64,000 nucleotides of DNA from Murinocardiopsis flavida (lineage in GTDB: Bacteria > Actinomycetota > Actinomycetes > Streptosporangiales > Streptosporangiaceae): the NCBI RefSeq assembly GCF_003014485.1, contig NZ_PYGA01000004.1, forward strand, positions 186,001 to 250,000, given 5' to 3'. The translations under genes and the position numbers were made by a program. Of the stretch, positions 5,955 through 63,195 are shown one piece after another; positions within the stretch are counted from its first letter, which is position 1, and each line of letters begins with the position of its first letter. Below the pieces are notes generated by a model, which saw only the letters and a list, made by a program, of their open reading frames with translations, had not been told where the DNA came from and made no database searches.

Positions 5955-5973
5955 GTCCGCGGTGACCGCGGAC
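5955..5973. terminator. Hairpin between convergent genes
   Basis: GTCCGCGG and CCGCGGAC form a perfect 8-bp stem around a TGA loop. It lies between the ends of the oxidase and the 82-residue minus-strand gene, so it could serve both. Confidence 0.5.
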
Positions 5974-5992
5974 GCGGGCGTCCTCCGGGGGC

Positions 5993-6621: not shown

Positions 6622-6907
6622 GGGTCCGCCTTGTCCGAGGAACAGGTCGGGGACCCACGGCCCTGACCGGTGCTCCACCACTGGTCGGGGCCACTTCTCA
6701 TGGTCGGCGCCGGCGGTGGGTCCCCGCATGTTCGCCGCGGCCCGAAGGGCCGTCGCTGAGCGCCTCAGCTCTAATTTGAACGGCCCTGGACTCTGCACGC
6801 CAGCAGCTTCAACGGACGCTCATAATTCCTCAGAAGCGGTGGCGGGACGTGGTGGGTCGATGGTCGAATTCGGAAGACATCGGCTTATCCCCTCCCGGAG
6901 GCCCGGA
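6622..6907. promoter_or_regulatory. Divergent promoter region of small-gene pair and XRE regulator
   Basis: This stretch is distinctly less GC-rich than its surroundings around 6770-6835. It includes CATAAT at 6821-6826, a good plus-strand -10 for the XRE gene, and an AT-rich segment near 6769-6778 that could serve the minus-strand pair. GGAGG at 6896-6900 is the ribosome site for the ATG at 6908. Confidence 0.4.
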
Positions 6908-45821: not shown

Positions 45822-48164
45822 TCAGAACATTGCGTTGTCCGGCGCGAACAGGGCACCGTCGATCGTGCCGCCACCCTGAGCGGACGACACGGATTCGGTG
45901 TCCTGAGGGAGGAACGGGCTCGGGGTGCCGGACCATGCGATGACGAGCGCGTCGCGGGCGCGGGTCGCGGCGACGAACAGGAGCGAGCGGGCCTTCTGGA
46001 GTTCGCGGCGGTAGCGGAGCGGATCGGCGTCGCGCAGGCGCGTGACGGCCGCGCGCGGGATGATCCCGTCGGCCGCACCGGCGATGAGGACATGGCGGTA
46101 TTCGAGGCCCTTGAACCGGTGCAGCGTGCCGACGTGCACCGAACCGCTGTCCTCCGCGGCGTCGCTGCCGATCGTGACGGAGCGGAGGCCGGCCGCGAGC
46201 AGGCGCCGCTGGACCTCGCCCACCATGGACTTGGTCGGGGCGGCCACGGCGACCGCGGCTTCGTCGCCGTACCGCCGATGCCAACCGGAGACGACCTCGG
46301 CGACGGTGTCGAGTTCCTCCTCGGGGGTCGCCGCGGCCAGGAAGCGCAGGGGCGGGCCCGTGAGGACCGAGCGGTAGCCGGCCAGATCGTCGCTCTGGTC
46401 GTCCATGTCGTCCCAGCTCTCGTCGCCGAGGAGCCGCATGGCCGACCCGAGGATCTGGCGGGTGGTCCGGTAGCTCAGGGTGAGGCGGGACGACCGCCCC
46501 CGGATGTTGACGCCGAGACTGCTGAGGGACACGTGGTTGTCGTAGATCCGCTGGTGGGTGTCCCCGACGAGGAAGATGTCGTCGTCGCGCTCGGCGACCA
46601 TCGCCCGCAGCAGGGTCCAGTGCGCCGGGCTGAGATCCTGGGCCTCGTCGACGACGATGTGCTCGTAGTCGTAGCGCAGGCCGGCCCACGACTGCTCCTG
46701 GCGGTGCAGGAAGACCGCCCCGTGCTCCTCCTCGCGGCGTCGGTTCTCCTCGATCTTCGCCGCCTGCTCCGCCTTGACCCGGGCCGCGGTCTCGGCCACC
46801 TGGCGATAGGTCCATACGCCCTTCTCGTTGAGCCGCATGGTGAACCGCTCGACGAGTTCCCAGATCCGGGCACGCTGGGCCCGGCTGATGCGCTGCCCGC
46901 GGCCGGCGCGCCGCGCGCGGAAGTACCCGGACCGGGTGGCGATGCCCTGACCGAGGATCACCTGGTTCCATTCGGCACTGAGGAACTCCGCGTCCCACGA
47001 GGTCTCGCCCAGCTCGACGAGCATGTCCCGCCACTCGTCGGTCGCTTGCAGGTCGTTGATGCGGCGCCGGCGCCCGCCCAATGCCGCCTCGGTGACGATG
47101 CGGCTCGCGAGCTTGTCGATGTTGACGATGTCGACGCGGTCGACCAGCTCCTGCCCGCCGAGTTCGAGCAGGCGCTTGCGCAGGTCGGCGACGAGATTGG
47201 TGGTGAACGTGGTGAGGAGTACCTGCTTGCGCTTGGCCGGGGGCAGCTGCTCCACCAGGTACTTGACCCGATGCAGTGCGACGATGGTCTTGCCGGTGCC
47301 GGGCCCGCCGCTGACCCGTGCGGGCCCTTTGTAGGAGCGGCGGACCAGCTTCCGCTGAGCCGGGTGGAGGAAGACCTTCCACCGGTTGAACGGGTCCTCG
47401 ATGGCGTCCTGGAGATCGGTGTCCTCGGTGCTGACCCGGGTGGCCGGGCGCCGCAGCGCCGCGCCGAAGTCACTGGTGTCGACCGGTTCGGGTACCGCGA
47501 CGGGCCGGGTGATCTGCTCCAGTACCTCGTCGAAGCCCTTGCCGTCGGCCAGGGCCAGCAGCACCTCCTCGGTCATCGACGGGGCGTACTTGATGAGTCG
47601 GAGCAGGGTCTCCTCGGAGTCGACTGCCATGGCGCTGGGGATGAGCACCTCGGTGACGCCGAGTTCGCGCAGGCCTTCGGCGCCGATGTGGGCGAACATC
47701 GACTGCGGAGTGTCGGGGGCATTGGCAGGGGCCGTCGGCCGGGACGGCGGGGCCGACTCTGGCTCCGGTGCGGCGACGGGGACGGCCGCCGTCTCGGGGG
47801 GCTGTGCGTCGATCTCCGTCGAGGGCACGATCTCCAGGAACTCGATCGCGCCGGTGACTTCGTTGATCTGCGTCCGGAAGCGGTCGAGGTTGTCGTAGAC
47901 GTCCTGGCGGGCCCGGACCCCGACGAGGATGTAGTCGTTGTCGCCCGCGTGCAGGATCAACGCGCGGTAGTCGCTCGTCACCCGCGCCGAATACAGCAGG
48001 TCGTGCCCCTGGAGCCGCTTGAACTGGAGACCTGGGGTGGCGGGGTTCTCCCGGAAGCGGTACTGGAAGTCGTAGATCGCGCCCTTGACCGGTCGGGGCA
48101 GTGCGCGGATCTGCTTGTCGGCCTTGTCCAGCAGCCGCAGTGTGGCCTTGCCGTGCACGCTCAT
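45822..48164 (-). CDS. UvrD-family helicase with RelE/ParE-fold N-terminal domain
   Basis: A 780-residue SF1 helicase. Residues 1-95 (LDKADKQIRALPRPVKGAIY, then LLYSARVTSDYRALILHAG, then VGVRARQDVYDNL) match the RelE/ParE toxin fold, including the basic core residues. Residues 95-270 form a Pro/Ala linker and a helical HhH-like part. The helicase follows: Walker A SGGPGTGKTIVALHR near 285, VVDEAQDLSP near 500, and a C-terminal motif GTLHRFKGLEYRHVLI near 680. ATG 48164 overlaps the upstream giant helicase gene by four bases, so the proteins are made together. Whether the RelE-like part is active is unknown. No RelB-like antitoxin is adjacent. Confidence 0.88.
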   Translation of the reverse strand: MSVHGKATLRLLDKADKQIRALPRPVKGAIYDFQYRFRENPATPGLQFKRLQGHDLLYSARVTSDYRALILHAGDNDYILVGVRARQDVYDNLDRFRTQINEVTGAIEFLEIVPSTEIDAQPPETAAVPVAAPEPESAPPSRPTAPANAPDTPQSMFAHIGAEGLRELGVTEVLIPSAMAVDSEETLLRLIKYAPSMTEEVLLALADGKGFDEVLEQITRPVAVPEPVDTSDFGAALRRPATRVSTEDTDLQDAIEDPFNRWKVFLHPAQRKLVRRSYKGPARVSGGPGTGKTIVALHRVKYLVEQLPPAKRKQVLLTTFTTNLVADLRKRLLELGGQELVDRVDIVNIDKLASRIVTEAALGGRRRRINDLQATDEWRDMLVELGETSWDAEFLSAEWNQVILGQGIATRSGYFRARRAGRGQRISRAQRARIWELVERFTMRLNEKGVWTYRQVAETAARVKAEQAAKIEENRRREEEHGAVFLHRQEQSWAGLRYDYEHIVVDEAQDLSPAHWTLLRAMVAERDDDIFLVGDTHQRIYDNHVSLSSLGVNIRGRSSRLTLSYRTTRQILGSAMRLLGDESWDDMDDQSDDLAGYRSVLTGPPLRFLAAATPEEELDTVAEVVSGWHRRYGDEAAVAVAAPTKSMVGEVQRRLLAAGLRSVTIGSDAAEDSGSVHVGTLHRFKGLEYRHVLIAGAADGIIPRAAVTRLRDADPLRYRRELQKARSLLFVAATRARDALVIAWSGTPSPFLPQDTESVSSAQGGGTIDGALFAPDNAMF

Positions 48165-51100
48165 TCCTTTCGTCCGCCTCTCTCCGCCAGTCGGCGCGCG
48201 ATCTCCGCGGCCTCCCACGCCTGTGCACCGCGCGCCTCCCAGCCCGCGCGCGCGTAGGCGTCGTCGCGCTTGCGCTTCTCCTCGGCGTGCATGGCCCCCA
48301 CGACCCGGATGTCCTCCAGGACCACGGCGATCTGCACCTCGGGCCACGCGAGTTCGGCCTGGAATCCGTCGCGGGCCAGTTCATAACCCACCTCGGGTGC
48401 GGGTGCCCCGCGGCGGAACAGGCTGCGGGCGAGCTCGGCCAGCCCGGCCTCCTCCGGCTCGATCAGTTCGAGTACCTCTGCCCAGCCGGGGTCGCCGATC
48501 GGCTCGGGGGTGCCGGCGTGTTGTGCTTCGGGTGTTTGTGCGGCTCGAATCCCCGCCGGCGTCCCGGAATCGGCGCGCCGTGGTGCGGACGGTCCGTCCT
48601 CGGGCGCTGCGGCGCCGTCCGCCGCGTCCCGTTCCAGCAGCGGCCTCGTCAACCGGGTCCGGTCGAGCGTGTCGCCGAACGTCGCCTCCGCGTCGTCCGC
48701 TCCGATGGGAGCGGCTGCGATGTCGGCGTCGAGACCCGTCCCACCGGCCACGGCGAGGATCCCGGTGTCGAACCCGTCGAGTTCGCTCCATGCCAGCTGG
48801 GCGCACTCGCCTTCGCCGCTCGCCAGGAACTGCACCAGGTTGCCCCAGTACAGCCAGGACCGCCAGCGCCGCTTGCGCACCTCCGGCTCCTGTGTCGCCG
48901 CCGTCTCCGGTCGGTCGTCGAAGACGACGAAACCGCTGAACACGGGCGGGTTCTGGCCGACAAGCACGGTGACCGGGGTCCCTGCGGCGTCCGCCGCCCG
49001 CACCAGCGCGTGCGGCGCGCCCGACCGGTCCGGCGGCAGGGGCGCTCCCCGAAGGCCGTCCGCCACTGCCGACGGCACCGCCGCGGCGCCGATACGGGCG
49101 CGCTGCGCGCCGCGCACGGCCGGCAGCCCTCCGAGGGCGGCCTCGACACGCCCTCGCCACACCTCGGGGTCAGGGTCGGTCAGGAACGCCAGGAGGGTGT
49201 GCACGGGGTTGGTCCACACCGTCCGCGCGAGTTCCTCGGGATCACCGCCGCGGCGCCGGTAGGCGGCGCGGGCCTCCTTCATCGGGTTGTGGCTGTACGG
49301 CTGCCATGCCGGTGACGTCACCGTCGCCCGCTCGTCCTCCCAGGCGCTGACGTCTTCCAGGTTCAACTGGAACACGGTGACCCCGTGCGCGCGCAGCCGC
49401 GCCCGCTTCGCGGCGTCGTCGGCCGTGCGGTCGGTGTCCGGCGCGGCGTGGTAGGTGTAGCCGTCGAGGTAGACGGCGACCTGCACGGGCCGGTTGTCGC
49501 GCCGGCGGAACACCACGTCGGGCCGGGTGCCGCGCAGGGTGTTCTGAAGGACGACCTGCCAGTTCTCCACGGTCCCGGTCGGGCTCTCGACCCGCAGGGT
49601 GCCCGTGATGCGGTCGATCAACCGGCTGTCGGTGGTGAACGACCGGCCCGTTCCGGGTTCATCGGCCCATCGTTGCAACCGGCTGAGGAAGCGCCGTTCG
49701 AGTTCGCTCTCCACCTGGTCCCAGAGGGAGATCTCGCTGATGCCCCCGATGCTCTCGACGTCCCAATCGCCCAGGAGTTCGTCGAGCATCTCCTTGGCCG
49801 TTGCGCGGTCGGCGTAGGAGAACTCCTCGTCGGTGACGTGCAGGAGCAGGCACCGGTGGCACGCCGCGAGAGAGGCGTCGACGCGGCAGTCGCACTCGGC
49901 GACGATGTCCCGTGCGGCTTCGAGGACCTCGCGGATGCCGTCGGGCCCCGACCTCGGGTACAGGTAGCCGCTGCCGCCCGGGAGTGTGTCGTAGACGACG
50001 AGGTAGCGCCGCAGCCCGTCGATCTCCCTGTCGGGCATCGTCGCCACGGTGGCGTCGAGATGGCCGAGCGTGCCGCCGAAGATCCGCGCGAACCCTGCCA
50101 TCAGGGCGGCCTTGAACGAGACGGTCCGTTCGGGGACGTGGATGGTCGCGGCGGGCAGCAGGATGCGCAGCGCCTCGGTGTGCAGGGTGTGGGCGAGCAC
50201 GAGTTGGACGTGTTCGACCTCGCGTCCGCGGCGGCGGGGGCACCACGGCCGGTGGTAGCCGGGCTGGGTGTCGTGCCCGCTGCTGGTGTGCGGTTGGGCG
50301 GAGCCGGAGTCGGGCACGCCGGTGGAGGTGGCACCGCCGCAGGACGTGCAAATGTGGAAGGGGTGGTACCGGACCAGCCTCCCGGCGAGCACCCCGTCGG
50401 CGGCCCCGTGCATGCGCACCGGTCCGAGGTTGAGCAGGCGCACTGCCGCCCCCCGGCTGAACTCCACGCCGAAGGCGCGCTCTCGGCGCCGCCACGCGCC
50501 GGGCACGATGGTGTCCTCAGGGATGTCGATGGCCGTGGCGACCTCGTAGTACACACGTCGGCGCTCGTCGCGATCGTCGCTGATGCGGGCGTCCTCGCGG
50601 CGGTCGCGGGAGTAGACGCGGGTGGGTTCGAGCACGCGGTGCAGCGCAGACTGGTCGCCGATGTGCCCGCTCTTGCAGCGGGGGCAGGGGCTCGTGTCGG
50701 CGGCGGCCCCCGTGGTGCGGGCGTAGCCGCACTGGGGGCAGATCCGCCAGCTGCGGTAGGCAGGGCTGGTGGGCGCCCCGATGTCCAGTCCGTTCACGGA
50801 GTGGCGATATCCCAGGACGTAGAAGTCGTTGCCGGGAGCGAGCTCGGTCAGGGCGCGGCGGGCCGGCCGCCCGTGCTCGTAGATCACCGACTCGTAATGG
50901 CGGTCGCCGTCATCGGTACGGTCGTTCCAGAACACGGTGGCTTCGAGGAAGGTGGGCGTGTCGGTCAGCGAGTAGTTGGGGAGGACGCCGAGCTCGACCA
51001 GCGCGCTGTGGGCGGTGGTCCGCCCGATCTCGCGGATGCGCTTAGCGACGGCCTTGCGTTCGGCACGCAGTTCGCGTTTGCGCCGGAACTGCTCGGGGTC

Positions 51101-54100
51101 GGAGTCGATGAGGGCGCCCGCCGCTGTGTCGAGGACATCGATCCGGGCGCGCAGGTCGCTCAGTCGGTCGTGCCAGGTGTTCTCGGCAGCGGCCAGTTCC
51201 TCCTTGATGCCGACCTGGGCGAAGTCGCGCAGGTGCGTCGCGGCCTCGACCGAGACGGGCTCCCCCGCCCCGCCGAACAGCGCGAGGAACCGTTCCACCA
51301 ATGCTGTTCCGTGGGCTTGGGCGGCGGCTCCGAAGGCGGGCAGCCAGCCGCTCTCACCGAACAGGGATGTGGCCCGGCCGGGGAGGGGCAGGACGTCGGC
51401 CAGTAGGCCGCGTGCCGCTGAGTCGACCAGGTAGGCGGCGTATTGGCGGCGCAGGATCTCCACGGCGGAGGTGAAGCTTCCCGGCGGGACGATCTCCCCG
51501 GCGATCATGTCCAGCGGTTCGCGGAGGTAGTAGCGTTCCCGCGCCCGCCGCCCGACGAAGGTCAGCACGAGCGCGTTTCCGGAGCTGCGCCCGGCGCGCC
51601 CGGCGCGCTGGACGTAGTTGGCCGGGCCGGGCGGCAGGGAACCGAGCAGCACCACCGACAGCGCTCCGATGTCGATGCCCAGTTCGAGGGTCGGTGTGCA
51701 GGAGAGCACATTGGGGTCGGTGTAGCGGTCGCCCACGACGAACCGCTGCTCCACCCGTTCGCGCTGGGCGCGGGTCAGCTGGCCGGTGTGCTCGGCCGTG
51801 GTGACTCGGAACGGCCCGGCGTCCAGGTAGAGCCGCCGGTAGTAGTCGTCGGCGAAGCGAGCGTCGTCGTGCGGTCCGAGCCGGCCGGTGCACCGGTAGC
51901 GCGGGCATGCCGCCCCGGCCCATCGGTCCAGGGTGTCGGGGTGGGCGGTCTGGCGCCAGTTGCAGACGGGGCAGAGGACGCCGCCGCCCTTGGCGCCGTC
52001 GGCGTCGAGCCGGCGGACGAGCACGTGGCCCGGGGTGATCCCGTAGACCCGGGTCGCGCCGTCGTTGGCGGTGGTGCGGGTGAGGACCCCTTCGTCGTGC
52101 AGCAGGTCCAGCAGCCGCGGCAGGTAGCGGTCGGCGGTGTCGGGATCCACGTTGAGGCTGCGCTTGGTGAAGTCCTGGTACCAGTTGCCGCGGCCGGCCA
52201 CCGAGTCGACGTCGCCGGACCGTGCGGCCCGGCCGCCTTTGGCGCGGTCGATGACGAACCGGGGTGCGGGCACTCCGGTGGGGAACGCGGGCATGCCGTC
52301 GGGGCGCTGGCCCCAGATGGTGCCGTAGCGCCTGGCCCCGGCGGCCTTGACCCACGGCTGCAACCAGTGATGCGCGATCCCGCCGCGGGTGCGCACCCGC
52401 TCCAGGAGGCCCCGGAGGTAGGCATGGAAGGTGTCGGGCCCGGGGACGGCGTCCAGGGACATGGCCCCTTCGTGCGGGGCGTGCACGAGGATGTCCCTTG
52501 CCAGCGCCGCGAGCCGGACGGGGTCGCCCAGGTCCACGTCGACCGATGCGGTGCGGGTGAGTTCCAGGGTGCGCCCTTGCCGGGAGCGGAGCCCGAACTC
52601 CATGACCGCCGCGAACGCCAGGCGCTCCCCGATGAGCTGCCACGTCTTGGTCCCGCCGGTACTCGTCCCGGCGAGGACCGGGTCGATCTCGGTTCGCCCG
52701 TGCAGGTCCGGGGGGACGACGCAGGCCAGGTACGCCGGTGTGGCCGCCTCGCGGACGGTATCGGCGATGAGGTCGTTGAGGGCCACGGGGGTACCGTCGG
52801 CGGGCAGCCGGGCGGCGAGGAGACTGCGCAGCGAGAACGTGTACGAGCGGTTGGAGACGAACCCGGCGCGATGGGCCGCGTCCTGGACGGAGTCGTTGAA
52901 CAGCAGCGTCTTGGGCGGTTCGGCGGCGCCGTCCCCGCCGAACCGCCCGGTGAACAGTTCGGTGATGGCAACCGATGCCAGCGCGGCGAGGCCCGAACCG
53001 AGGAAGCGGGTGCCCTGCTCGGCGCCGCATGCCGGACACCGGTCGTTCTCGGCGTCGCGGAAGGCGTCGGGGTTGTGGGCGAGGTCGGCGAGGACGAAGG
53101 CGCCGTCGAGGTCGCCGCGTGCGGCCCGGTCGAAGTCGACTCGCTCGTCGACGGGCCGGATGCGCCCGCCGTGGCCTTCGAGGACGTGCACGCCGCCGTC
53201 CTTCAGGTGCCTGCGGGCCTCGCCGGCGGTCGCGCTGATGAGGGAGCGCACGAAGCGCTTCGCGGAGATACCGGAGCGATAGATCTTATCGGGGTCGGTG
53301 TCGAGGTCGTGGGGCCGGCTCTCGGGCGAGTAGGCGGCCCAGCCGGAGCGCCCGCAGTGCCGGCAGTAGACGGCCGGCAGGCTGGCGCGGGACGTGATCG
53401 ACGCCGTCGTCTCGGTGTCGAGGGCCGGTGCCGCTTCGCCGTGCCAACTGAAAGCGGGTCGGCCCGTGCCGATGGTGCGCAGGAGTCGGCTGACCGAGCG
53501 GATCCACATGTGGACCTCGACGGTGAGCAGCGGGGAGTCGGGGTCGTCGGGGTCGCGCGCGGTCGACAGCAGCGCGATGTAGCGGGCGAGCGCCTCGGCC
53601 GCCAACTGCGGCGTCCCCTTGATCGCGCGCCCCCACGTGTAGGCGCCCCGTTGCGGCAGCCGGGGGAGCAGCAGGTCGAGGTCCATCACGCCGCCGGAGA
53701 GGATGTCCAGGAGGGCGTGGGTCAGGATGTGCTTCTTGAGGACGCGTCCGAGCTCGGCGGGGTCGAGGTCGTCGCGGTCGGTGAACGCGCGCATGACCGG
53801 GGCGAGCGTGCCGGTGGAACCGTACGGGTCGCGGATGTTGGCGACGCCGACCGGGTCGGGGACCGGCAGGCTGTAGTCGAGGTCGTCCATGAACCGGGCG
53901 GGGTCGATCCGGTCCTCGCCGATGAGGGAGTCGGCACCGAAAGGAGTGCCGAAGACCGCGGACGCGACCGCGAGGACGTCCTCGCGGCGGTAGCCGGTGT
54001 CGCCGGCACCGAGGGTCGCGCTGGTGGCGACCGGGCAGATGTCGCCGAGGGGTCGGTCCGAGCGGCTGTGTCCGGTGGCGGCCGCGAGCCGGCGCAGCAG

Positions 54101-54847
54101 CATGGCGACATCGGTGCCCTGCGCGCCGTCGTAGGTGTGGAACTCGTCGACGACGATGTAGGCGAGGTCGGCGTCCTCCCACAAAGGGACGTCCTGCTCG
54201 CGCTGGAGCAGCAGGTCGAGCATCTTGTAGTTGGTGATCAGCACGTCGGGGCGGGCGCGCCGGATCGCCGTGCGATCGGTGCGCACCCGGTCGTACCCCG
54301 TCTCCGGGGTATCGCCGATGTAAAGGCCCGCGCTGACCTGCTCCATGCCGGGGCCGCGCAGGAATTCGTTGATCCGCCCCGCCTGGTCGGTGGCGAGTGC
54401 GTTCATCGGGTAGAGGAGCACGGCCTTCACACCGGCCCGCCCTTGAGCCCGCATCCGGCGGCAGTGGTCGAGCACGGGCACGAGGAAGGATTCGGTCTTG
54501 CCGGATCCGGTGCCGGTGGTGATGACGGTCGGCTGCGCCGGCCCTGACCGTGTGGAAAGCCGATGGAAGGCCGCGGCCTGGTGCCGGTAGGGCGTGAACC
54601 CCGGGGGGTGCCAGTCGAGGTGCTCTCGCCACCCGTCGGCGGCCTTGCGGAAAGGGGTGCGCAATCGCAGGTAGGGGCCGCGGAAGATGCCCTCGCTCTT
54701 GTGGCCGAGGAAGTCCTCCAACCCTTCGCGCACGTGCTCGTCGGCGAGCGCGAAGGTCGTGGCGAGGTACTGCGTGACGTTGCGCCGCACTTCGGCCGCT
54801 GCGAGAGTCGGCTGCATGGGTCGGAGGTGCTCCCGTCGCTCGTCCAT
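48161..54847 (-). CDS. Giant DEAD/DEAH helicase with DUF1998 (DruE/MrfA-like)
   Basis: A 2228-residue protein. Helicase motif I TGTGSGKTES is at about 111-120, VVDEFHTYDGAQGTD (motif II, DEFH) near 233, and helicase C ends with NYVQRAGRAGR near 1080. Zinc ribbons occur near 955 (CPVCNW, CPRYRC) and 1370-1395 (CPQCGY, CPRCKSG). DUF1998 runs from about 1590, with GGSGYLY and the four-Cys set CDC...CHRC. A segment near 1775-1800 (GTRPDVVF, then VQVAVYLDGYTYH) looks like a PD-(D/E)XK nuclease core. Hrq1/MrfA and Druantia DruE share the helicase-DUF1998 layout. No druA or druH neighbour is present. It is the first gene of the minus-strand defence operon. Confidence 0.85.
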   Translation of the reverse strand: MDERREHLRPMQPTLAAAEVRRNVTQYLATTFALADEHVREGLEDFLGHKSEGIFRGPYLRLRTPFRKAADGWREHLDWHPPGFTPYRHQAAAFHRLSTRSGPAQPTVITTGTGSGKTESFLVPVLDHCRRMRAQGRAGVKAVLLYPMNALATDQAGRINEFLRGPGMEQVSAGLYIGDTPETGYDRVRTDRTAIRRARPDVLITNYKMLDLLLQREQDVPLWEDADLAYIVVDEFHTYDGAQGTDVAMLLRRLAAATGHSRSDRPLGDICPVATSATLGAGDTGYRREDVLAVASAVFGTPFGADSLIGEDRIDPARFMDDLDYSLPVPDPVGVANIRDPYGSTGTLAPVMRAFTDRDDLDPAELGRVLKKHILTHALLDILSGGVMDLDLLLPRLPQRGAYTWGRAIKGTPQLAAEALARYIALLSTARDPDDPDSPLLTVEVHMWIRSVSRLLRTIGTGRPAFSWHGEAAPALDTETTASITSRASLPAVYCRHCGRSGWAAYSPESRPHDLDTDPDKIYRSGISAKRFVRSLISATAGEARRHLKDGGVHVLEGHGGRIRPVDERVDFDRAARGDLDGAFVLADLAHNPDAFRDAENDRCPACGAEQGTRFLGSGLAALASVAITELFTGRFGGDGAAEPPKTLLFNDSVQDAAHRAGFVSNRSYTFSLRSLLAARLPADGTPVALNDLIADTVREAATPAYLACVVPPDLHGRTEIDPVLAGTSTGGTKTWQLIGERLAFAAVMEFGLRSRQGRTLELTRTASVDVDLGDPVRLAALARDILVHAPHEGAMSLDAVPGPDTFHAYLRGLLERVRTRGGIAHHWLQPWVKAAGARRYGTIWGQRPDGMPAFPTGVPAPRFVIDRAKGGRAARSGDVDSVAGRGNWYQDFTKRSLNVDPDTADRYLPRLLDLLHDEGVLTRTTANDGATRVYGITPGHVLVRRLDADGAKGGGVLCPVCNWRQTAHPDTLDRWAGAACPRYRCTGRLGPHDDARFADDYYRRLYLDAGPFRVTTAEHTGQLTRAQRERVEQRFVVGDRYTDPNVLSCTPTLELGIDIGALSVVLLGSLPPGPANYVQRAGRAGRSSGNALVLTFVGRRARERYYLREPLDMIAGEIVPPGSFTSAVEILRRQYAAYLVDSAARGLLADVLPLPGRATSLFGESGWLPAFGAAAQAHGTALVERFLALFGGAGEPVSVEAATHLRDFAQVGIKEELAAAENTWHDRLSDLRARIDVLDTAAGALIDSDPEQFRRKRELRAERKAVAKRIREIGRTTAHSALVELGVLPNYSLTDTPTFLEATVFWNDRTDDGDRHYESVIYEHGRPARRALTELAPGNDFYVLGYRHSVNGLDIGAPTSPAYRSWRICPQCGYARTTGAAADTSPCPRCKSGHIGDQSALHRVLEPTRVYSRDRREDARISDDRDERRRVYYEVATAIDIPEDTIVPGAWRRRERAFGVEFSRGAAVRLLNLGPVRMHGAADGVLAGRLVRYHPFHICTSCGGATSTGVPDSGSAQPHTSSGHDTQPGYHRPWCPRRRGREVEHVQLVLAHTLHTEALRILLPAATIHVPERTVSFKAALMAGFARIFGGTLGHLDATVATMPDREIDGLRRYLVVYDTLPGGSGYLYPRSGPDGIREVLEAARDIVAECDCRVDASLAACHRCLLLHVTDEEFSYADRATAKEMLDELLGDWDVESIGGISEISLWDQVESELERRFLSRLQRWADEPGTGRSFTTDSRLIDRITGTLRVESPTGTVENWQVVLQNTLRGTRPDVVFRRRDNRPVQVAVYLDGYTYHAAPDTDRTADDAAKRARLRAHGVTVFQLNLEDVSAWEDERATVTSPAWQPYSHNPMKEARAAYRRRGGDPEELARTVWTNPVHTLLAFLTDPDPEVWRGRVEAALGGLPAVRGAQRARIGAAAVPSAVADGLRGAPLPPDRSGAPHALVRAADAAGTPVTVLVGQNPPVFSGFVVFDDRPETAATQEPEVRKRRWRSWLYWGNLVQFLASGEGECAQLAWSELDGFDTGILAVAGGTGLDADIAAAPIGADDAEATFGDTLDRTRLTRPLLERDAADGAAAPEDGPSAPRRADSGTPAGIRAAQTPEAQHAGTPEPIGDPGWAEVLELIEPEEAGLAELARSLFRRGAPAPEVGYELARDGFQAELAWPEVQIAVVLEDIRVVGAMHAEEKRKRDDAYARAGWEARGAQAWEAAEIARRLAERGGRKE

Positions 54848-55153: not shown

Positions 55154-56815
55154 GTGGCCAAGGTGACCCGCCCGAAGATCGTCGACACGCGTCCGAGCGA
55201 GTTGGTGGACTGGGCGCGCGACGGCCGGATCCGATTGCCGTCGTTCCAGCGCTCCTACCAGTGGGAGTCGTCGGATGTTCGACGGCTGTTCGACAGCCTG
55301 CTGCGCGGTTACCCCATCGGCAACCTGCTCGTCTGGGAGCGCCCCGCCTCAGCCGAGGACGTGACGATCGGCCATCTCACCGTGACCGCCGCGGATACGC
55401 ACTCCGCCTACTGGGTGGTCGACGGACAGCAGCGCATCACCTCCCTGGTCGGGGCGCTCACCGCCACCGGCGACACGGTCGACCCGCGCTTCCGCGTCTA
55501 CTACGACCTCGACTCCGGCGACTTCGCGACCCTGCCGCGCCGGCGCAAGCCCTCTCCCGACTGGTTCCCGGTACCGCTGACCCTGGACACGGCGCGGGCG
55601 AACGCGTGGATCCGTGAGCGGCCGCATCTCACCGGTGAGCAGATCGCGCAGGCCGACGAGCTCATCGCCGCGGTCCGCGACTACCGGATCCCGATGTACA
55701 TCGTCTCCGGCGACGACGAGCGCGCACTGCGCGAGATCTTCGACCGGATGAACACCTACGGCAAGGCGTTGAAGAGCGCCGACGTGTTCCGGGCGCTGCA
55801 CGCTTCGTCCGACGCCCGCGAGCCCGGAGACCTCACCTCGCTCAGCGCCGAGGTCGAGGCCCACGGCTTCGGCCGCTTCACCGACCAGCTCCTCATGCAG
55901 AGCATCCTGGCAATCCGGGGGCCAGTACTCGACCGGGACTTCCGCAAGGAGTTCGCCGATGCGGAGGACCTGAAGCACGCGCTCTCATCGACCCGCGACG
56001 CTTTGGGCCACGTGGTGGACTTCCTCCGCGACGAGGCCGGAATCCCGCACATCAAGCTGCTGCCCTACGCGCTCTTCGTGCCGGTCCTGGCCCGCTTCGT
56101 CGCCGCGTTCGGCCCGCCCCGGGGCCGCTCGGAGCGACTTCTGCGCCGCTGGATCTGGCGCGGTTCCGTCCTCGGCGTGGCTCCGCAGGGCAACACCGTG
56201 GGTCTGCGGAAGAACGCCCAGGCGGTGCGGGACGACCCCACCGCGAGCGCCGAACGGCTGATCGGACTGCTGCCCGCCGGGGCGGCGGCGACCTGGGTAC
56301 CGGATCTCTCGCACACCCGCATCAACTCGGCCCTCGGCAAGGTCAACATCCTCGGGCTTCTCTCTCGCGCGCCCCGGCCGCTGCCCAGCGCGGGCACGCT
56401 CATGCGCACCGAGGCCGAGGAGCGCCCCATCGACATCTCCGCTGTTCTCGAACTGGATGCCCCGCCTCCACTTCTCGCACCGGTCTTCGACCTCGCGTGG
56501 CCGGAGGGCGAGAACATCGCCAACCGGCTCGTCGCGCCGGGGGCCAAGGCGGCCCAGGTGCACGCCGCGCTGCTCGACGGGGAGGTCGACGACCGGTTCC
56601 TCACCGGCCAATGCCTCGATGCAGCCTGCCTGAAGTTCCTGCGCTCCGGCGACTCCCACGGCTTCCTGGCCCACCGCGGTGAGCTCGCGCGATCCGTGAT
56701 CGCGGCCCACGTCCAGGAATACGCCCTGTTCGGATTCCGCGACGGACCGACACTGTCCACCATGTTCGAGGACACCCCGCTCCCGGTGGATTCCGACAGA
56801 GGAGACCGCGCATGA
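55154..56815 (+). CDS. DUF262 (GmrS/ParB-like NTPase) protein
   Basis: A 553-residue DUF262 protein. The family motifs are clear: LPSFQRSYQWESSDVRRLF near residue 28, GYPIGNLLVW, VVDGQQRITSL near 90, and IFDRMNTYGKAL. GmrS-type DUF262 domains are ParB-fold NTPases, usually followed by a DUF1524 HNH nuclease. Here I see no HNH motif in the C-terminal half, and a HipA-like kinase gene follows instead, overlapping by four bases. Strong GGAGGAGG ribosome site. A role in sensing phage or modified DNA is inference. Confidence 0.9.
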   Translation: MAKVTRPKIVDTRPSELVDWARDGRIRLPSFQRSYQWESSDVRRLFDSLLRGYPIGNLLVWERPASAEDVTIGHLTVTAADTHSAYWVVDGQQRITSLVGALTATGDTVDPRFRVYYDLDSGDFATLPRRRKPSPDWFPVPLTLDTARANAWIRERPHLTGEQIAQADELIAAVRDYRIPMYIVSGDDERALREIFDRMNTYGKALKSADVFRALHASSDAREPGDLTSLSAEVEAHGFGRFTDQLLMQSILAIRGPVLDRDFRKEFADAEDLKHALSSTRDALGHVVDFLRDEAGIPHIKLLPYALFVPVLARFVAAFGPPRGRSERLLRRWIWRGSVLGVAPQGNTVGLRKNAQAVRDDPTASAERLIGLLPAGAAATWVPDLSHTRINSALGKVNILGLLSRAPRPLPSAGTLMRTEAEERPIDISAVLELDAPPPLLAPVFDLAWPEGENIANRLVAPGAKAAQVHAALLDGEVDDRFLTGQCLDAACLKFLRSGDSHGFLAHRGELARSVIAAHVQEYALFGFRDGPTLSTMFEDTPLPVDSDRGDRA

Positions 56816-58029
56816 GCGAACGCACCGCAGGGGTCTTCCTCGGCGAGCGCAGGGTGGGCACGCTCGGCTACGCCCACGGCAACACCTGGTTCGACTACGA
56901 GGACTTCGCGCCCGACCACCCGGTGCTCGGCCAGGCGTTCGAGGCGGACCCGTCGTTCCGTCGGACAGCGAGCGGCTCGGTACCCGAGTGGTTCGCCAAC
57001 CTCCTGCCGGAGCGCGGCAGCGGCCTGCGGCGCATCATCGGACGCGAACTCGGTATCGAGCACCCGCACGACTTCCAGGTCATCTGCCGCATCGGCGACG
57101 ACCTGGCCGGGGCCGTCCGCGTCCGCCCCGATGCCGACCTCGGCGAGTTCTCGGTCTTCGGTGAGGAGAGCGACTGCGCACACGACCACCCCGTCCGCTT
57201 CTCCCTGGCGGGGGTCCAGGCGAAGTTCTCCATGCGCTGGGAGGGCAAGGGCCTGGTCCTGCCCATGACGGGCGAGGGCGGCGACTGGATCGTCAAGCTC
57301 GCCGATGCCCGCTTCCCCGACGTGCCCCGCAACGAGTTCGCGATGCTGACGTGGGCCGCGTCCGCAGGGGTCGAGGTCCCCGACATCCGGCTCGTTGCCA
57401 CGACCGAACTGCGCGGCCTGCCAGAGGGCCTCGCCGGGAGCGAAGAGTCGGTACTGGCCGTGCGCCGCTTCGACCGCGCCCAAGACCACCGCATCCACCA
57501 GGAGGACCTCGCCCAGGTGCGGGAGGTCTCGGTCGACGCCAAGTACGACCGCGCCTCCTACAGCGGGATCGCCCGTGTCATCAACGCGCTGTGCCCGCAG
57601 GACATCGACGAGTACATCCGCCGCCTCGCCGCGATCGTCGTCATGGGCAACCTCGACGCCCATCTGAAGAACTGGACACTGCGGTACCCCGACGGCCGCT
57701 CCGCGCGGCTGTCCCCCGCCTACGACTTCGTGTCGGTCTCCTCCTACGCCGGTCACGACGCCTCGTTCCGCGACGACCGCCTCGCCTTCGCCGTCAACGG
57801 CGGCCAGACGGCGCGGCTCGTCACGCTGCGGCACTTCCACCACCTGGCCGACCGCGCCGGCCTCGACCCGGATCGCGTCCGCGGCGTGGTCCGCGACACC
57901 GTCCGGACGATGTCCGACACCTGGGCCGAGGTCAAGCGGGAGGCGCCCGTCCCCGGGTTCCTCGCCGAACACCTCGATGCCCGGCTGGCGTCGCTCCCGC
58001 TCGTGACCGACGTGCGCCTCCGCACCTGA
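56812..58029 (+). CDS. HipA-like Ser/Thr kinase
   Basis: A 405-residue HipA-family kinase. The HipA N domain contains LGYAHGNTWFDY and GSVPEWFANLLPE. The C domain has SLAGVQAKFS near 132 (usually S-G-x-Q-x-K), DWIVKLA near 160, catalytic GNLDAHLKNW near 280 (canonical G-N-x-D-x-H-x-K-N) and LSPAYDFVS near 302. HipA phosphorylates aminoacyl-tRNA synthetases and is held by HipB; no HipB gene is adjacent. The ATG overlaps the DUF262 stop by four bases, so the DUF262 protein may be its control partner. Confidence 0.92.
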   Translation: MSERTAGVFLGERRVGTLGYAHGNTWFDYEDFAPDHPVLGQAFEADPSFRRTASGSVPEWFANLLPERGSGLRRIIGRELGIEHPHDFQVICRIGDDLAGAVRVRPDADLGEFSVFGEESDCAHDHPVRFSLAGVQAKFSMRWEGKGLVLPMTGEGGDWIVKLADARFPDVPRNEFAMLTWAASAGVEVPDIRLVATTELRGLPEGLAGSEESVLAVRRFDRAQDHRIHQEDLAQVREVSVDAKYDRASYSGIARVINALCPQDIDEYIRRLAAIVVMGNLDAHLKNWTLRYPDGRSARLSPAYDFVSVSSYAGHDASFRDDRLAFAVNGGQTARLVTLRHFHHLADRAGLDPDRVRGVVRDTVRTMSDTWAEVKREAPVPGFLAEHLDARLASLPLVTDVRLRT

Positions 58030-58152: not shown

Positions 58153-61100
58153 ATGCAGCCCTCCTCCCGACCGCAATGGCTGGCCGATGTGATCGCGGCG
58201 GTGCGTACGTGGCACAAGGCCGAAGGCGGCGGAGCGGCCGACAAGAGCAGGGCCGATGTCGACCTGGGGCGGGTACTGACGGAGTCCACCCGCGGGCCTG
58301 GCTGGTTCCTTTGGTCGGCCCGCGACTCCCCGCCCGACGAGACCGCCCTCGAAGAGGCCTACCTGGCACCGGCGTCCGGTAGCAAGGACATCCGCTACCG
58401 GCTCCGCGAGACGATCAACGACGAGGGGCGGCTCCTCATCCGGGTCGCCACCGACGCACCGCGCGAGGGCCTGCACCTGTGGAAGCGCGGGCGGCCCACG
58501 GCCCATCTGGTGCAGACGCTGCTCGACGGCCTGGAGCGCCTCACTGGCGACGGCCCCGCAGCGGCGTTCGGGGCAGGACGCGCCGACCCGCTGAGGAGCG
58601 AACTCGCCGGGCCCGTCGCCGGCCTCAACCCGGGCCAGCGGCTGGCCTATTCCGCCTGCGTCTCACCGGGGCTGCAACTCGTCTGGGGGCCTCCGGGGAC
58701 CGGCAAGACCGAGGTCATCATCCGAGCGCTGCTCAGTGCAATCAAGACCGGGAAGTCGGTGCTGCTGGTCTCGGGTACGAACGTCGCCGTGGACAACGCC
58801 CTCGACCGGGCCATCAGAAGCCTGCGCCCGGCCGCGGGGACGGTCATCCGGGTGGGCACCCCGCATCTCGCGTCCGTCGCCGACAACCCCAACGTGTCCC
58901 TGACCACGCTGAAACGCCGCCGCCAGGAGGCCAAGGAGAAGGAGGTGCTCGACCTCGAACAGCGGGTGGTGCAGGCCCGCGTACCCGTCGAGACGCTCGC
59001 AAAGGCGCAGGAGCGCCTCGCGCGGTTCGACCCCGCAACCGACCGCGCGGCGCGTGCCCGCATCGCGTCCGCTGACCGCGCGGCTCGTATCGCCGCCGAG
59101 GTCGCGGCGGCACAGGAGCGGCTCAACGCCAAGGGCGCGGAGCTGGAAATCGGGCGGCAGGTCGCCGCCGAGGTCGAGGAGGAATGGGCGTCGGTCTCCC
59201 TCGCAGCCGAACGATGGTCGAGGATCGACCGGAGCCACCGAGAACTGGCCGAGCTCGGGCAACGGCGCGATCGATCGGCGCTGGCCGTCAGCGACGGCCG
59301 GTCAGCCGTGCGCGCGGCCGAGGAAGAGCGCGACCGACACACTGCAACCGGGATGTTCTCACGCCTCCGTGACAGGCAACAGCGCAGAACCGCGGAGCAA
59401 GGAGTCGTCGACGCACAGCACCGCCTCGCTGCCGCCGAGGCCGAGCACGCGGCGCTGCTCCCGGTGCTGGCCCGGGAGGAGGGCCGGGTCAACGCGTTGA
59501 TCGCCGAACTGGAGCGGCAGAACCACGGTACCCCCCGGTACTTTGTTCAGAACGTTTCGCGGCGCCTGGCCGAAGCGCGGCGGACCGTTCGCGATGGCAG
59601 CACCGCCTACGACCGGGCCGTCGGCGACCACCGGCGCTTCGAAGCGAACCTTGCCGAGGCGCGTGCCCGCTCCATGCCCACCGACCACGACCGGAAGCTC
59701 GTCGCGTGGGCCGACCGGAACGGACTGCTCCGTCTCCATCAAGGACTCGACGCCCTTTCCAAGGCGGCTGAGCAAGCGCTGTCGGAGGTCAAGCGGCTCA
59801 CCACGGCACGGCAGAAGGCCGAACAGGAGCTCGCCGAGTTGGGCCGCGACGCCGAGCGCTACTTCGTCGGCCGGGCGACCGTGGTGGCCACCACCCTGGC
59901 CATGATGCGGATGAAGCCGGTCATCGGCTCCCGCACCTACGACCTCGTGATCGTCGACGAGTGCGCTGCGGCCGGCATCCCTGAGGTCCTGCTCGCGGCC
60001 GGACGCGCCACCTCCGGGGTCACCCTCCTGGGCGACTTCATGCAGAACATGCCGATCGAGGCGGCCAGTCTGCGCCGGAACAGCGACCCCCACGTGAAGC
60101 GGTGGCTGGCGCCCCGGGACTGCTTCGCCGCGCTGGACGTCACCCGCCCCGAAGAGGCCGAGGCCGCGCCCGGCTGTGTCGTGCTCACCGAGCAGCACCG
60201 CTTCGGCCCGGAACTCACCCGCCTGGTCAACGCCGCCTCATACGGCGGCCTGCTCACCTCCGCAGCGGGAGCCGCGGCGACCGACATCTGCTTCGTCGAC
60301 GTGGACGGCCTCGGGGACTCCCTCGCCGGTGTCCATCCGAGCCCGGACGGCGCCAAGGGCAAGTGGTGGAGCGTAGGCGGCGTCATCTCCCGCGCCATCG
60401 CCGAGCAGCAGCTTGCGACCAAGGAGGCGCGCAGTGTCGGCATCGTCGCCCCGTACAAGGTGCAGGCCGGTCTCACCAAGGCCATCATCGACGACGCCGG
60501 CGGGAACCCGCTGATCGACATCGGCACCTCGCACCGTTTCCAGGGCCGGGAGTTCGACACGGTCGTGTTCGACATGGTCGAGGACGGCAACGGCTGGGTC
60601 GCGGCGGGCGAGTTCGGTTCGAACGGATTCAAGCTCGCCGGGCTCAAGCTGAGCAACGTCGCGATGACCCGGGCGCGCCGCCGCCTGTACCTCATCGGCA
60701 ACGGCGCCGCAGTCGAACGCGCCCGCTCCGGGGTCCTCTCCCACATCCGCGCTGGGATCGGCCGCGGCGACATCCGAGTGGTGCCGGTCCGCGACATCCT
60801 GCACAGCCCTGCGCCCTCGGCTCTCGAAGGCCCCGCCGCGGACCTGTGGGACGCGGTGAGCCAGTACGTCAAGTACACCGGGTTGTACGACGAGGGCGAC
60901 CTGCCCGACGAACTGGTCTCCCGGATCGAGGGGGCCCGCCGCAGCGTGTGGCTGTGGGCGCCCTGGACCGGCGCACGGCTCCACGAGTTCCTGCCCGCGC
61001 TGGAGGCGGCCCAGGCGCGCGGGGTCCATGTCCAGGTGACGACACTGCCCACGTGGGACGAGATGTACCGGGGGCCCAGCCCCAAGGCCCAGCGGATGCG

Positions 61101-61515
61101 CGACTGCCACGAGGATCTGACCACGCGTGTCCGCAAGGTCGTGTACATGGAGAACATGCACCAGAAGATCGCGGTGATCGATGAGGAGGTCGTCTTCATC
61201 GGCAGCATGAACGTGCTGTCCCACCGGCGCGACGGAGGCCGTCGGGAGATCATGACGGTCGTGGAGAGCGCCGCCTATGCCCGGCACATCCTCGACTTCG
61301 AGCGCGTCGACCAGTTGTCGCGACCGCCACGCTGTCCCAAGTGCAATGAGCGCATCCGCACCTTCGCCTTCAAGAAGCCGTCGAAGGCCCCGGCCCTGTA
61401 CTGGTTGTGCCGGTCCGCACCGCCGTCCACTCCGGGGAGGACCCCGAGGGTCTGCTCCGAGCAGGCCTTTCCTCCCCTGTCGCGGGGACGCAACCAGCAG
61501 CGCGGGTCCCGGTAA
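58153..61515 (+). CDS. COG1112-type helicase fused to PLD nuclease (Mokosh type II-like)
   Basis: A 1120-residue protein. SF1 (Upf1/Dna2-like) Walker A GPPGTGKTEV is near 178. A long coiled coil of about 300 residues comes next, then VIVDECAAAGIPE near 602, GTSHRFQGREFDTVVFD near 792, and MTRARRRLYL near 837. A PLD nuclease part starts near 920 (VWLWAPWTGARL) with one H-x-K-x4-D motif, HQKIAVID, near 1003. A CPKC zinc motif ends the chain. Mokosh type II systems put exactly these two activities in one protein. One HKD motif means nuclease activity would need a dimer. Confidence 0.88.
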   Translation: MQPSSRPQWLADVIAAVRTWHKAEGGGAADKSRADVDLGRVLTESTRGPGWFLWSARDSPPDETALEEAYLAPASGSKDIRYRLRETINDEGRLLIRVATDAPREGLHLWKRGRPTAHLVQTLLDGLERLTGDGPAAAFGAGRADPLRSELAGPVAGLNPGQRLAYSACVSPGLQLVWGPPGTGKTEVIIRALLSAIKTGKSVLLVSGTNVAVDNALDRAIRSLRPAAGTVIRVGTPHLASVADNPNVSLTTLKRRRQEAKEKEVLDLEQRVVQARVPVETLAKAQERLARFDPATDRAARARIASADRAARIAAEVAAAQERLNAKGAELEIGRQVAAEVEEEWASVSLAAERWSRIDRSHRELAELGQRRDRSALAVSDGRSAVRAAEEERDRHTATGMFSRLRDRQQRRTAEQGVVDAQHRLAAAEAEHAALLPVLAREEGRVNALIAELERQNHGTPRYFVQNVSRRLAEARRTVRDGSTAYDRAVGDHRRFEANLAEARARSMPTDHDRKLVAWADRNGLLRLHQGLDALSKAAEQALSEVKRLTTARQKAEQELAELGRDAERYFVGRATVVATTLAMMRMKPVIGSRTYDLVIVDECAAAGIPEVLLAAGRATSGVTLLGDFMQNMPIEAASLRRNSDPHVKRWLAPRDCFAALDVTRPEEAEAAPGCVVLTEQHRFGPELTRLVNAASYGGLLTSAAGAAATDICFVDVDGLGDSLAGVHPSPDGAKGKWWSVGGVISRAIAEQQLATKEARSVGIVAPYKVQAGLTKAIIDDAGGNPLIDIGTSHRFQGREFDTVVFDMVEDGNGWVAAGEFGSNGFKLAGLKLSNVAMTRARRRLYLIGNGAAVERARSGVLSHIRAGIGRGDIRVVPVRDILHSPAPSALEGPAADLWDAVSQYVKYTGLYDEGDLPDELVSRIEGARRSVWLWAPWTGARLHEFLPALEAAQARGVHVQVTTLPTWDEMYRGPSPKAQRMRDCHEDLTTRVRKVVYMENMHQKIAVIDEEVVFIGSMNVLSHRRDGGRREIMTVVESAAYARHILDFERVDQLSRPPRCPKCNERIRTFAFKKPSKAPALYWLCRSAPPSTPGRTPRVCSEQAFPPLSRGRNQQRGSR

Positions 61516-61571: not shown

Positions 61572-61626
61572 CGGCACCGTCGCCGAACTCCCCCTGCGGC
61601 GCGTGGCGCGAAGGAGACGATCCCCC

Positions 61627-63195
61627 GTGGAATTCCCCAGTTCCCCCGTTCCTGCTGCGTGGCTCGTCCGCGCCGGCCGCGACGGCGAACGCGAGAAGGA
61701 AGCCCTCGAGGTCGGCCTCGCCATCGCCGGATGGCACGAACTCGACGATCTCAGCGTGTTCGCCACCAGGGAGGGGCTGCGGGAGTACGTCCGTGCGACC
61801 TATCCGCATGCCGGCACCGCCCTAGTGGGCAACTGGACCGGCCAGCTGTGGCGGTTCTGCTCCCAGATCGCCGTAGGAGACCACATCGTCATGCCGATGA
61901 AGACCCGGCCGGGCGTGGTCGCCGTCGGCCGGGTCACCGCCGAGTACCGTTACCGTGCCGATTCTCCGGTGGGGTTCCAGCACGTGCGCCCGGTCGAATG
62001 GCTGCGCACCGACATCGCGAAGGCCGCCATCAGGCAGGACCTCCTCGACAGCATGGGGTCACTGCTGACCGTGTGCGGGTTGACCCGCTATGACGCCGCC
62101 CGCAGGGTCGCCGCACTCGCCGAGCGCGGAATTGATCCGGGCGCGAGTGACGACGTCGGCGCGGACATCGCGGTGCAGAACAGCCGGGACCTGCTGAACG
62201 AGGCCGCGAGGCGTGATGCGAACGACCCGGTCCGAATGACGGTCCGCGACTTCTTGGACCGGTGGGGCCTGGTCCGGCGCGGGTCCACCTCCGTCGAACG
62301 CGTCACGGCCGACCTGGCCGAGCAGGGCTTGACCACGCGGCCTCCGTTCCCTGACGTCGGCATCGACAGCACGATCGACATCATCCAAGTGGGCGAAGAG
62401 CCCACTCTGAAGTTCGCGCTGACCGAGGCGCAGACGGCCGAGGACACCAAGGACGCCTCCGAGATGCCGTCGGTGAGCCTGCACGTTGGTGCGCTGCCCG
62501 CCGCCAACCAAGGGGTGGCGAGCGTGCGCCCGGACGACACGCTCAAGCAGGCCACGACCACGATGCTGACCAAGCGGTACTCACAGCTGGCCGTGATCGA
62601 CGGGGACGGCAAGCTACACGGCGCGGTGAGCTGGCAGTCCATCGCCGAAGCGTGGATCAATGATCCTGGGGCACCGCTCACGAAGGCCATCGCACGATCG
62701 AAGCCGGCCGCCTTCGACGAACCGCTGCTGGACCTCATCAAACCGATCTCGGAAAACGACTTCGTGTTCGTGCTCGGCGCGGACAAGGTCAGCATCGTTG
62801 GAATCGTGACCGCAGCAGACCTCACCCAGCGGTTCGGCGATCACGCCGGACCGTTCGTCCTACTGGAGGAGATCGAGCGCCGCTTGCGGCAGGTGGTGGA
62901 CAACAGTGTGCCGCGCGATCAGATCACGAAGCACGCCCGCGACAAGAAGCTCGCGAGCCTGCACGGTGCGTCCGCACTGACGATGGGAAACTACTGCCGC
63001 CTGCTGAGTGATGCGGACAACTGGCAGCGCCTGGCCTGGAGCATCGACCACGCTCTCTTCCTCCATGAACTGGATGAGGTGCGCAATATCCGCAACGAAA
63101 CCATGCATTTCAGCGCGGACCCGATCCAGAAGGATCACATCAGGCGGCTCGACGGCTTCCTCAATCTCATCAGGACCGTCACCCCGGATTTCTGA
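61627..63195 (+). CDS. Mrr_N/EVE-like, CBS pair and HEPN fusion protein
   Basis: A 522-residue protein with an unusual domain order. Residues 1-120 (WLVRAGRDGEREKEALE, then VGNWTGQLWRF) fit the Mrr_N/EVE-like reader that recognises modified DNA or RNA bases. A middle part of about 170 residues has a winged-helix look. Two CBS units follow at about 299-340 and 360-405 (GAVSWQSIAEAW; GIVTAADLTQRF). The C-terminal Swt1-like HEPN part carries R489-N-E-T-M-H494, an intact R-x4-H RNase motif. Likely a nucleotide-gated abortive RNase; that is inference. GTG start, own promoter. Confidence 0.85.
   Translation: MEFPSSPVPAAWLVRAGRDGEREKEALEVGLAIAGWHELDDLSVFATREGLREYVRATYPHAGTALVGNWTGQLWRFCSQIAVGDHIVMPMKTRPGVVAVGRVTAEYRYRADSPVGFQHVRPVEWLRTDIAKAAIRQDLLDSMGSLLTVCGLTRYDAARRVAALAERGIDPGASDDVGADIAVQNSRDLLNEAARRDANDPVRMTVRDFLDRWGLVRRGSTSVERVTADLAEQGLTTRPPFPDVGIDSTIDIIQVGEEPTLKFALTEAQTAEDTKDASEMPSVSLHVGALPAANQGVASVRPDDTLKQATTTMLTKRYSQLAVIDGDGKLHGAVSWQSIAEAWINDPGAPLTKAIARSKPAAFDEPLLDLIKPISENDFVFVLGADKVSIVGIVTAADLTQRFGDHAGPFVLLEEIERRLRQVVDNSVPRDQITKHARDKKLASLHGASALTMGNYCRLLSDADNWQRLAWSIDHALFLHELDEVRNIRNETMHFSADPIQKDHIRRLDGFLNLIRTVTPDF

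Follow-up and report, generated by a model that had tools for sequence, protein, structure and literature searches.

Introduction

The described system closest to the locus considered here is ARMADA Type II, a phage-defence system of four genes (Bell et al. 2025, bioRxiv, PMC12458937). According to the main text of that report, ArmA is a BrxHII-like helicase, ArmB a PglX-like methyltransferase, ArmC a YprA-like helicase with BrxA-like, Zn and OB-CON-DUF1998 parts and a Vsr-type PD-(D/E)XK C-terminus, and ArmD a GajB-like UvrD helicase with an N-terminal RelE domain; WP_000937974.1 is named there as a representative Type II ArmC. The same text states that, in Escherichia coli, defence was non-abortive and was abolished by loss of any single gene of the four, by Walker mutations of ArmA and ArmC, and by mutations in the ArmD Walker A and ArmB NPPW motifs, with only partial loss seen for mutants in the ArmD Walker B and ArmB S-adenosylmethionine (SAM) motifs. 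Here, we consider a pair of genes in Murinocardiopsis flavida (assembly GCF_003014485.1) that lies within a stretch of 64,000 nucleotides, referred to as the window, corresponding to positions 186001-250000 of contig NZ_PYGA01000004.1 (C4); coordinates without a contig name are those of the window. Comparison of the encoded proteins indicates that the pair is very probably the armC-armD part of a complete four-gene ARMADA Type II locus.

Several other named systems share parts with this locus. DISARM Class 1 also combines a related helicase with a methyltransferase, and two related ArmB proteins (those of loci L010 and L008) match DrmMI. DISARM was rejected as a home for the locus: DEAD, Helicase_C and MZB lie in one ArmC protein, whereas DrmA and DrmB are separate genes. 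The helicase core and MZB domain also resemble MrfA/YprA. The MrfAB/YprAB system was likewise rejected, as it has a helicase of approximately 750 amino acids (aa) with the MrfB exonuclease, compared with a protein of 2228 aa beside a RelE-UvrD gene here; a first-pass annotation, made from the letters of the window, had already set MrfA (751 aa) aside. BREX type 2 (Pgl) resembles the locus in having a kinase, PglW, beside a methyltransferase/helicase system. PglW, as presented in the relevant part of PMC12839542, has endonuclease and kinase domains, whereas the kinase described below is a protein of 345 aa.

Identity of the locus

Searching the M. flavida genome located armA (C4:257786-260734, minus strand), encoding a BrxHII/RapA-like helicase, and armB (C4:252737-257776, minus strand), encoding a PglX-like methyltransferase. 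Both lie on the contig and strand of armC, beyond the end of the window at 250000, and the order on the minus strand of C4 is kinase, armA, armB, a cargo slot of 11.9 kilobases (kb), armC and armD. The first-pass annotation had described a two-gene operon that matches no named system; armA and armB were invisible to it past the window edge, and ARMADA Type II, whose stated fourth partner is a RelE-UvrD protein, is a named system of just the kind that it had listed as speaking against its claim. The system is therefore known, its architecture having been rightly recognized and its novelty wrongly claimed. This removes a false ‘unknown system’ and illustrates that the reading of a single window can hide half an operon.

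Each of the four C4 proteins aligns in one piece, over most of its length, with its counterpart in the E. coli Zorya-Druantia-ARMADA locus (blastp: ArmA 33.8% over 48-982; ArmB 30.9% over 1-1669; ArmC 29.4% over 11-1822, 645 bits; ArmD 33.0% over 22-755). L010, the E. coli plasmid ArmC that served as a bridge sequence, has 98.6% DNA identity to the record that carries WP_000937974.1. Besides ArmA and ArmB, the locus thus has an ArmC with the helicase, Zn and DUF1998 architecture (Pfam and the one-piece blastp alignment) and a PD-(D/E)XK-like C-terminus, and an ArmD of RelE-UvrD type. The motifs that were mutated in E. coli have intact counterparts in all four proteins: GLGKT (K182) and DESH 282 in ArmA, PALGSG 615 and NPPW 1013 in ArmB, GTGSGKT 112 and DEFH 234 in ArmC, and GPGTGKT and DEAQD 506 in ArmD, with the usual meanings of such helicase and methyltransferase motifs.

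A survey of ArmC provided relatives for comparison. It comprises the best 80 of at least 581 loci found on scanning 84,980 species genomes, together with plasmids and two loci of M. flavida itself, and is a sample biased to the window's clade, not a census. On the relatives' plasmids (Streptomyces, Tsukamurella, E. coli), an ArmC homologue is followed by a UvrD gene, and a helicase and giant methyltransferase precede it in three of four records, that of S. griseoaurantiacus showing part of ArmB only. For ArmA, ArmC and ArmD of C4 the nearest relatives are L025 and then L051, both from Nocardiopsis; for ArmB the same two rank second and third behind L043. Both halves of the C4 locus thus share their nearest relatives.

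A second complete split ARMADA II locus is present in the same genome (C14:152792-188749; L098, L099 and L006). Its ArmC, on contig C14, is 54% identical to that of the window and occurs with ArmD, ArmB and ArmA in the same order. There, armB and armC are split by 17,687 base pairs (bp), and the cargo differs from that of C4, consisting of an AbiLi-like ATPase (5.4e-96), a type IIG restriction-methylation enzyme (3.9e-273) and a TPR protein. All four arm genes are open in both loci.

ArmC and ArmD

The armC gene (48161-54847, C4:234161-240847, minus strand; ATG start) encodes the protein of 2228 aa in which the first-pass annotation had seen a superfamily 2 (SF2) helicase, zinc ribbons and DUF1998, and Pfam bears this out: DEAD at residues 88-279, Helicase_C at 1014-1088 and MZB (the MrfA Zn-binding domain, in the DUF1998 region) at 1579-1667. 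The helicase core is of the YprA family and matches 6znp (MrfA/YprA) with an E value of 6.8e-20.

Towards the C-terminus, residues 1700-1866 (49250-49750, minus strand) form a putative nuclease domain, identified by alignment, an AlphaFold2 model and VIA-align. It contains the stretch RPDVVF...VAVYLDG (residues 1775-1796) that had earlier been noted as PD-(D/E)XK-looking, a suggestion that the model supports. The mean predicted local distance difference test (pLDDT) score of the model is 84.6, and VIA-align matches it to the PD-(D/E)XK nucleases BsoBI (Z 7.4), I-Bth0305I (Z 7.3; root-mean-square deviation 2.6 over 84 residues), TnsA (6.4) and NGO0050 (6.4). These values are all below the program's own caution level of 8, and other folds and mitoribosomal proteins reach similar Z values in the same list; Foldseek alone gave no match to the model at E<=0.001. 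All 44 aligned ArmC sequences share six residues (E1717, D1777, G1796, H1800, D1811 and R1815), and K1814 is nearly invariant. The conserved acidic, histidine and basic residues support the prediction that this late segment is PD-(D/E)XK-like. The narrower label Vsr is moderately supported, drawing on the description of ArmC in the main text of PMC12458937 and on Vsr-like relatives in the structural list. In a separate count, an ArmC-type gene (at least 80% query cover) occurs in 518 of 5426 complete E. coli genomes, 510 of its 525 places being chromosomal.

The armD gene (45822-48164, C4:231822-234164, minus strand) encodes a protein of 780 aa, composed of a RelE-fold domain and a UvrD/GajB-like superfamily 1 (SF1) helicase (Pfam; PADLOC GajB 1.8e-31). 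The model of residues 1-124 (47793-48164, minus strand; pLDDT 84.1) matches RelE-family toxins in Foldseek, with 1wmi at 1.5e-5 and 27 matches at E<=0.001, and Pfam assigns the remainder of the protein to UvrD. This agrees with the earlier reading of a RelE-UvrD gene that overlaps armC by four bases, at 48161-48164.

Conserved co-occurrence of the two genes, which had been proposed as a check, was found in the survey. Across 80 loci with a placeable ArmD, armC and armD overlap by four bases in 41 and by one base in 13, with more than 600 bp between them in three; the armD start was taken in each locus as the ATG or GTG closest to the armC stop, a choice that favours overlap. The first ArmD match lies 701 bp from armC in L086, 662 bp in L088 and approximately 4 kb in L007 and L076, where the ArmC frames are interrupted, and L056 is misplaced in this measure. 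With overlaps recurring in this way, that of the window is not due to chance, and armC-armD is a genuine conserved pair.

The armB/armC junction

A tree was built by a quick method from 82 ArmC rows, each 1500 aa or longer, and long branches are present in it; L007, L036, L061 and L076, in which the ArmC frame is interrupted or cut, were left out. The distance between armB and armC could be judged for 74 of the 82 rows. It is at least 600 bp in 38 of these and below that in 36; for four of the split rows (L015, L021, L026 and L044) armB is on a separate contig and the distance is a lower bound. With a threshold of at least 3 kb, 25 of 72 rows are split. At both thresholds, at least 12 changes between open and closed forms are needed on the tree. 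As a control, armA and armB are more than 600 bp apart in one of 47 loci (L069). These observations show that the armB/armC junction is a recurrent cargo slot in the loci sampled.

In the window's sister loci, Nocardiopsis L025 and L051, armB and armC are contiguous (gaps of 36 and 90 bp), so the window's split is likely to be younger than the divergence from Nocardiopsis. In some other clades, every row that could be judged is split. Where no whole armB was seen beside armC, the genome usually has an ArmB match: whole-genome searches of 16 such genomes gave an ArmB match at E<=1e-20 in 15, one being a remnant of 211 residues (L061) and another in pieces (L076), and the distance to armC, readable for ten of the genomes, was 10.7-31.2 kb. 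Among the cargo families, one IS110 transposase was seen in the first 25 of 46 families of one set; no integrase is among these or among the 25 listed of the 64 families of another set, and mobile genes may occur lower down these lists.

Several points differ from the described ARMADA Type II or weigh against the preferred reading. The published gene order is strict, as given in the main text of PMC12458937, and strict A-B-C-D adjacency is not found here: order and strand are kept, but armB and armC are parted by 11,889 bp that hold other genes. In addition, armC has lost its translational coupling to armB and the cargo within the window runs in the opposite direction, so that co-expression of the two halves is assumed. 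The match of the predicted ArmC nuclease domain to the Vsr type is also only moderate (the I-Bth0305I value given above). Because the junction is often open in the clade sampled (38 of 74 rows), the open locus is read as a variant form of ARMADA Type II rather than as grounds for exclusion from it.

The kinase upstream of armA

A further difference from the described system is that a Ser/Thr kinase gene precedes armA (C4:260759-261796, equal to L097:13260-14297, minus strand; Pkinase 1.8e-36). In 33 loci the sequence upstream of the ArmA match extends for 1 kb or more, and 20 of them (the C14 locus and 19 from the database) have a Ser/Thr kinase match in the same direction, ending 16-537 bp upstream. 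Of the 13 without one, 12 belong to another actinobacterial clade and one to Halobacillus. In the window's clade of 53 rows the kinase is present at every locus that could be judged, split loci with a distant armA falling mostly outside this count; it also precedes armA in the C4 locus, in L054 and in the genome of L011 (L101).

Within their last 40 residues, 20 of 22 such kinases carry LRxxY[A/T], the exceptions being L047 and the near-match L066. In M. flavida, the ARMADA kinase of C14 is the only one with this tail among 30 kinases retrieved from 49 Pkinase matches, and an LRxxYA-type tail occurs in none of the 290 cargo ORFs (open reading frames) described below. The tail may be a docking peptide. 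The C4 kinase also ends in an LRxxYA tail, which 29 other kinases examined in this genome lack. In 9 of 74 loci (L012, L013, L014, L015, L043, L044, L050, L054 and L071), armD is directly followed on its own strand by a different kinase-like gene.

Two features look unreported, as far as could be seen: the armB/armC slot that recurs, with its cargo, in the split loci of many related soil bacteria, and the upstream kinase together with its conserved tail. The word ‘kinase’ does not occur in the main text of PMC12458937, and no paper on an ARMADA kinase or on an armB/armC slot was recognized among literature listings and the starts of abstracts; either may be described elsewhere in PMC12458937.

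Cargo of the slots

The ORFs of 35 slots (287,049 bp; 290 called ORFs) were obtained with a crude caller based on third-position G + C content (GC3), which missed at least one gene, the DUF397 gene of C4; the gap in L059 was covered for 11,578 of its 12,407 bp. Clustering by blastp places an XRE regulator in 19 slot loci. A DUF397 gene is present in 18 of the 35 slots (17 by clustering, together with the one in C4). The host background is 407 matches in approximately 80.7 Mb of ten genomes, or one per 198 kb, from which approximately 1.5 would be expected in the slots; the excess is indicative, the related loci not being independent.

Other families also recur. Genes like NsnA, NsnB and NsnC occur together in six slot loci, five of them placed by clustering, and the set in L022 matches the PADLOC models at 2.7e-128, 4.9e-112 and 1.6e-103; we take NsnABC to be the system named Menshen. 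A pair of AAA and partner proteins of the HEC-01 kind occurs in four slot loci (PADLOC on L019 only), the Beta protein in five, the CBS type in four, a DUF3800-like protein in four, and an SF1 helicase with a PLD domain in two, including the window. A GmrSD_N domain was matched in 9 of the 145 cargo proteins scanned; NsnA carries this domain too, so that the counts overlap.

Interpretation and alternatives

A mechanism can be suggested by analogy with the E. coli system and from the predicted domains, and we regard it as evenly balanced between right and wrong. In this scheme, ArmB would methylate or otherwise mark host DNA, and the helicases ArmA, ArmC and ArmD would act on phage DNA that is unmarked or replicating. 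The Vsr-like domain of ArmC would then cut the phage DNA, blocking infection without cell death, with the RelE domain of ArmD serving as an RNase or as a structural module for docking or sensing. More speculatively, the kinase might use its C-terminal LRxxYA tail to tune the complex, and other defence systems might travel, and perhaps be regulated, with ARMADA by way of the slot.

These last steps can be extended into a broader and quite tentative proposal, which we consider rather unlikely as a whole. Actinobacterial ARMADA II would be a two-module shell under the control of a dedicated Ser/Thr kinase that docks by its conserved LRxxYA tail. An exchangeable set of defence genes (NsnABC, GmrSD, helicase-PLD or AAA pairs) would sit between armAB and armCD and be linked to ARMADA in its inheritance and, by way of XRE-DUF397, in its regulation. 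Should both the slot and the kinase be borne out, software that looks for defence systems by demanding neighbouring ARMADA genes would overlook or break up many systems of actinobacteria. New defence genes could then readily be sought in the slot, and the kinase would provide a control point, open to testing, on a large machine of helicases and a nuclease.

The alternative that survives best, and whose prospects we judge to be about even, is that slot and kinase are incidental: the junction tolerates inserts, islands accrete there, and the cargo has no functional link to ARMADA. In keeping with this, the cargo is diverse and occupies both strands equally, with 145 of the 290 ORFs on each. Much of it is not known defence: in a hand-picked PADLOC set of 30 proteins (29 cargo and one kinase, scanned with varying E limits) 11 had no match and others had only generic ones, such as TPR, and families such as TerD, Hsp70 and FG-GAP are present in the larger gaps. 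The ends of the slot share no direct or inverted repeats of at least 11 bp in the stretches compared for either M. flavida locus (chance approximately 0.4 in C4). Against this stand the contrast between the armA/armB control and the armB/armC junction, with its repeated changes on the tree, as well as the recurrence of NsnABC-like sets and DUF397 genes and the conservation of the kinase tail.

It is improbable that the locus is a broken, decaying ARMADA in which an insertion parted the halves and killed the system. The contiguous sister loci and the interrupted ArmC frames elsewhere (L007, L061 and the split locus L076) would fit such decay; however, all four genes are open in both M. flavida loci and several whole clades are split. 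An ArmC frame of 1500 aa or more is also found in 38 split rows, but this length had been required for entry to the tree.

A stand-alone armCD module, working without armA and armB as in the two-helicase module of the first-pass annotation, is very unlikely, and for M. flavida itself it was rejected on the finding of armA and armB. The tight coupling of armC and armD is what such a module would show, and a possible example is L080 (Streptomyces sp. JJ36), which has armC-armD, no ArmB match in its genome at E<=1e-20 and a weak, 30% ArmA-like match; it may be an orphan armCD locus or reflect assembly loss. In M. flavida, by contrast, neither armA nor armB is disrupted, and both share the strand and the nearest relatives of armCD. 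ArmB matches persist in 15 of the 16 genomes searched, including the remnant and the pieces noted above, and all four genes were required in E. coli according to the main text of PMC12458937.

A variant of Druantia Type III, which shares a giant YprA-family helicase and gives the best PADLOC model for ArmC (DruE3, 3.6e-89), is hardly credible: that label does not separate the two systems, since the ARMADA-type ArmC of L010 scores higher on it (2.7e-104); the real E. coli DruE aligns weakly and in two pieces (85-280, 124 bits; 1005-1688, 97 bits), against the one-piece alignment with E. coli ArmC; tblastn with DruH found nothing at E<=1 in the window and the five pieces next to it; and ArmC has a PD-(D/E)XK-like segment instead of two C-terminal PLD-like domains, with no Pfam match to PLD at E<=0.1. 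Druantia Type III was accordingly rejected as a home for the locus, as the first-pass annotation had held. No ARMADA name appears in the PADLOC output for the proteins scanned.

Other genes at the locus

The part of the C4 slot within the window holds genes on the plus strand, with start codons chosen by the analyst. They encode a GmrSD_N (DUF262) protein of 552 aa (55157-56815; Pfam 2e-28, PADLOC PDC-M55C 2.3e-53), a HipA-like protein of 405 aa (56812-58029; Pfam HipA_C 1.5e-48) and a Mokosh-like SF1 helicase of 1120 aa with a C-terminal PLD domain (58153-61515; PADLOC MkoA 1.2e-41 and MkoC 3.7e-29, PLDc_2 2.3e-12). These are followed by a CBS-domain protein (61612-63195), which has a PDC-S02-like N-terminus (PADLOC, 8.8e-55 over 15-217) and a DS11_antiphage region (NCBIfam NF053863, E 3e-81 over 212-519, above the cut-off) and has relatives in three other slots by blastp clustering. 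An AbiEi-like gene begins at 63323 and runs past the window end at 64000 (PADLOC AbiEi 1.7e-23 for L097:1824-2747). Further along the slot, an XRE regulator and DUF397 gene (L097:4157-5201) end 36 bases before the armB stop, in convergent orientation, and such pairs recur in slots. Elsewhere, in the slot of L024, a gene (2740-6642) for a 1300-aa protein, in which a caspase-like peptidase is joined to a Mokosh-like SF1 helicase, adjoins one for a Beta protein (PD-Lambda-2_C-like); L020 has a clustered relative of 1547 aa, likewise next to a Beta protein.

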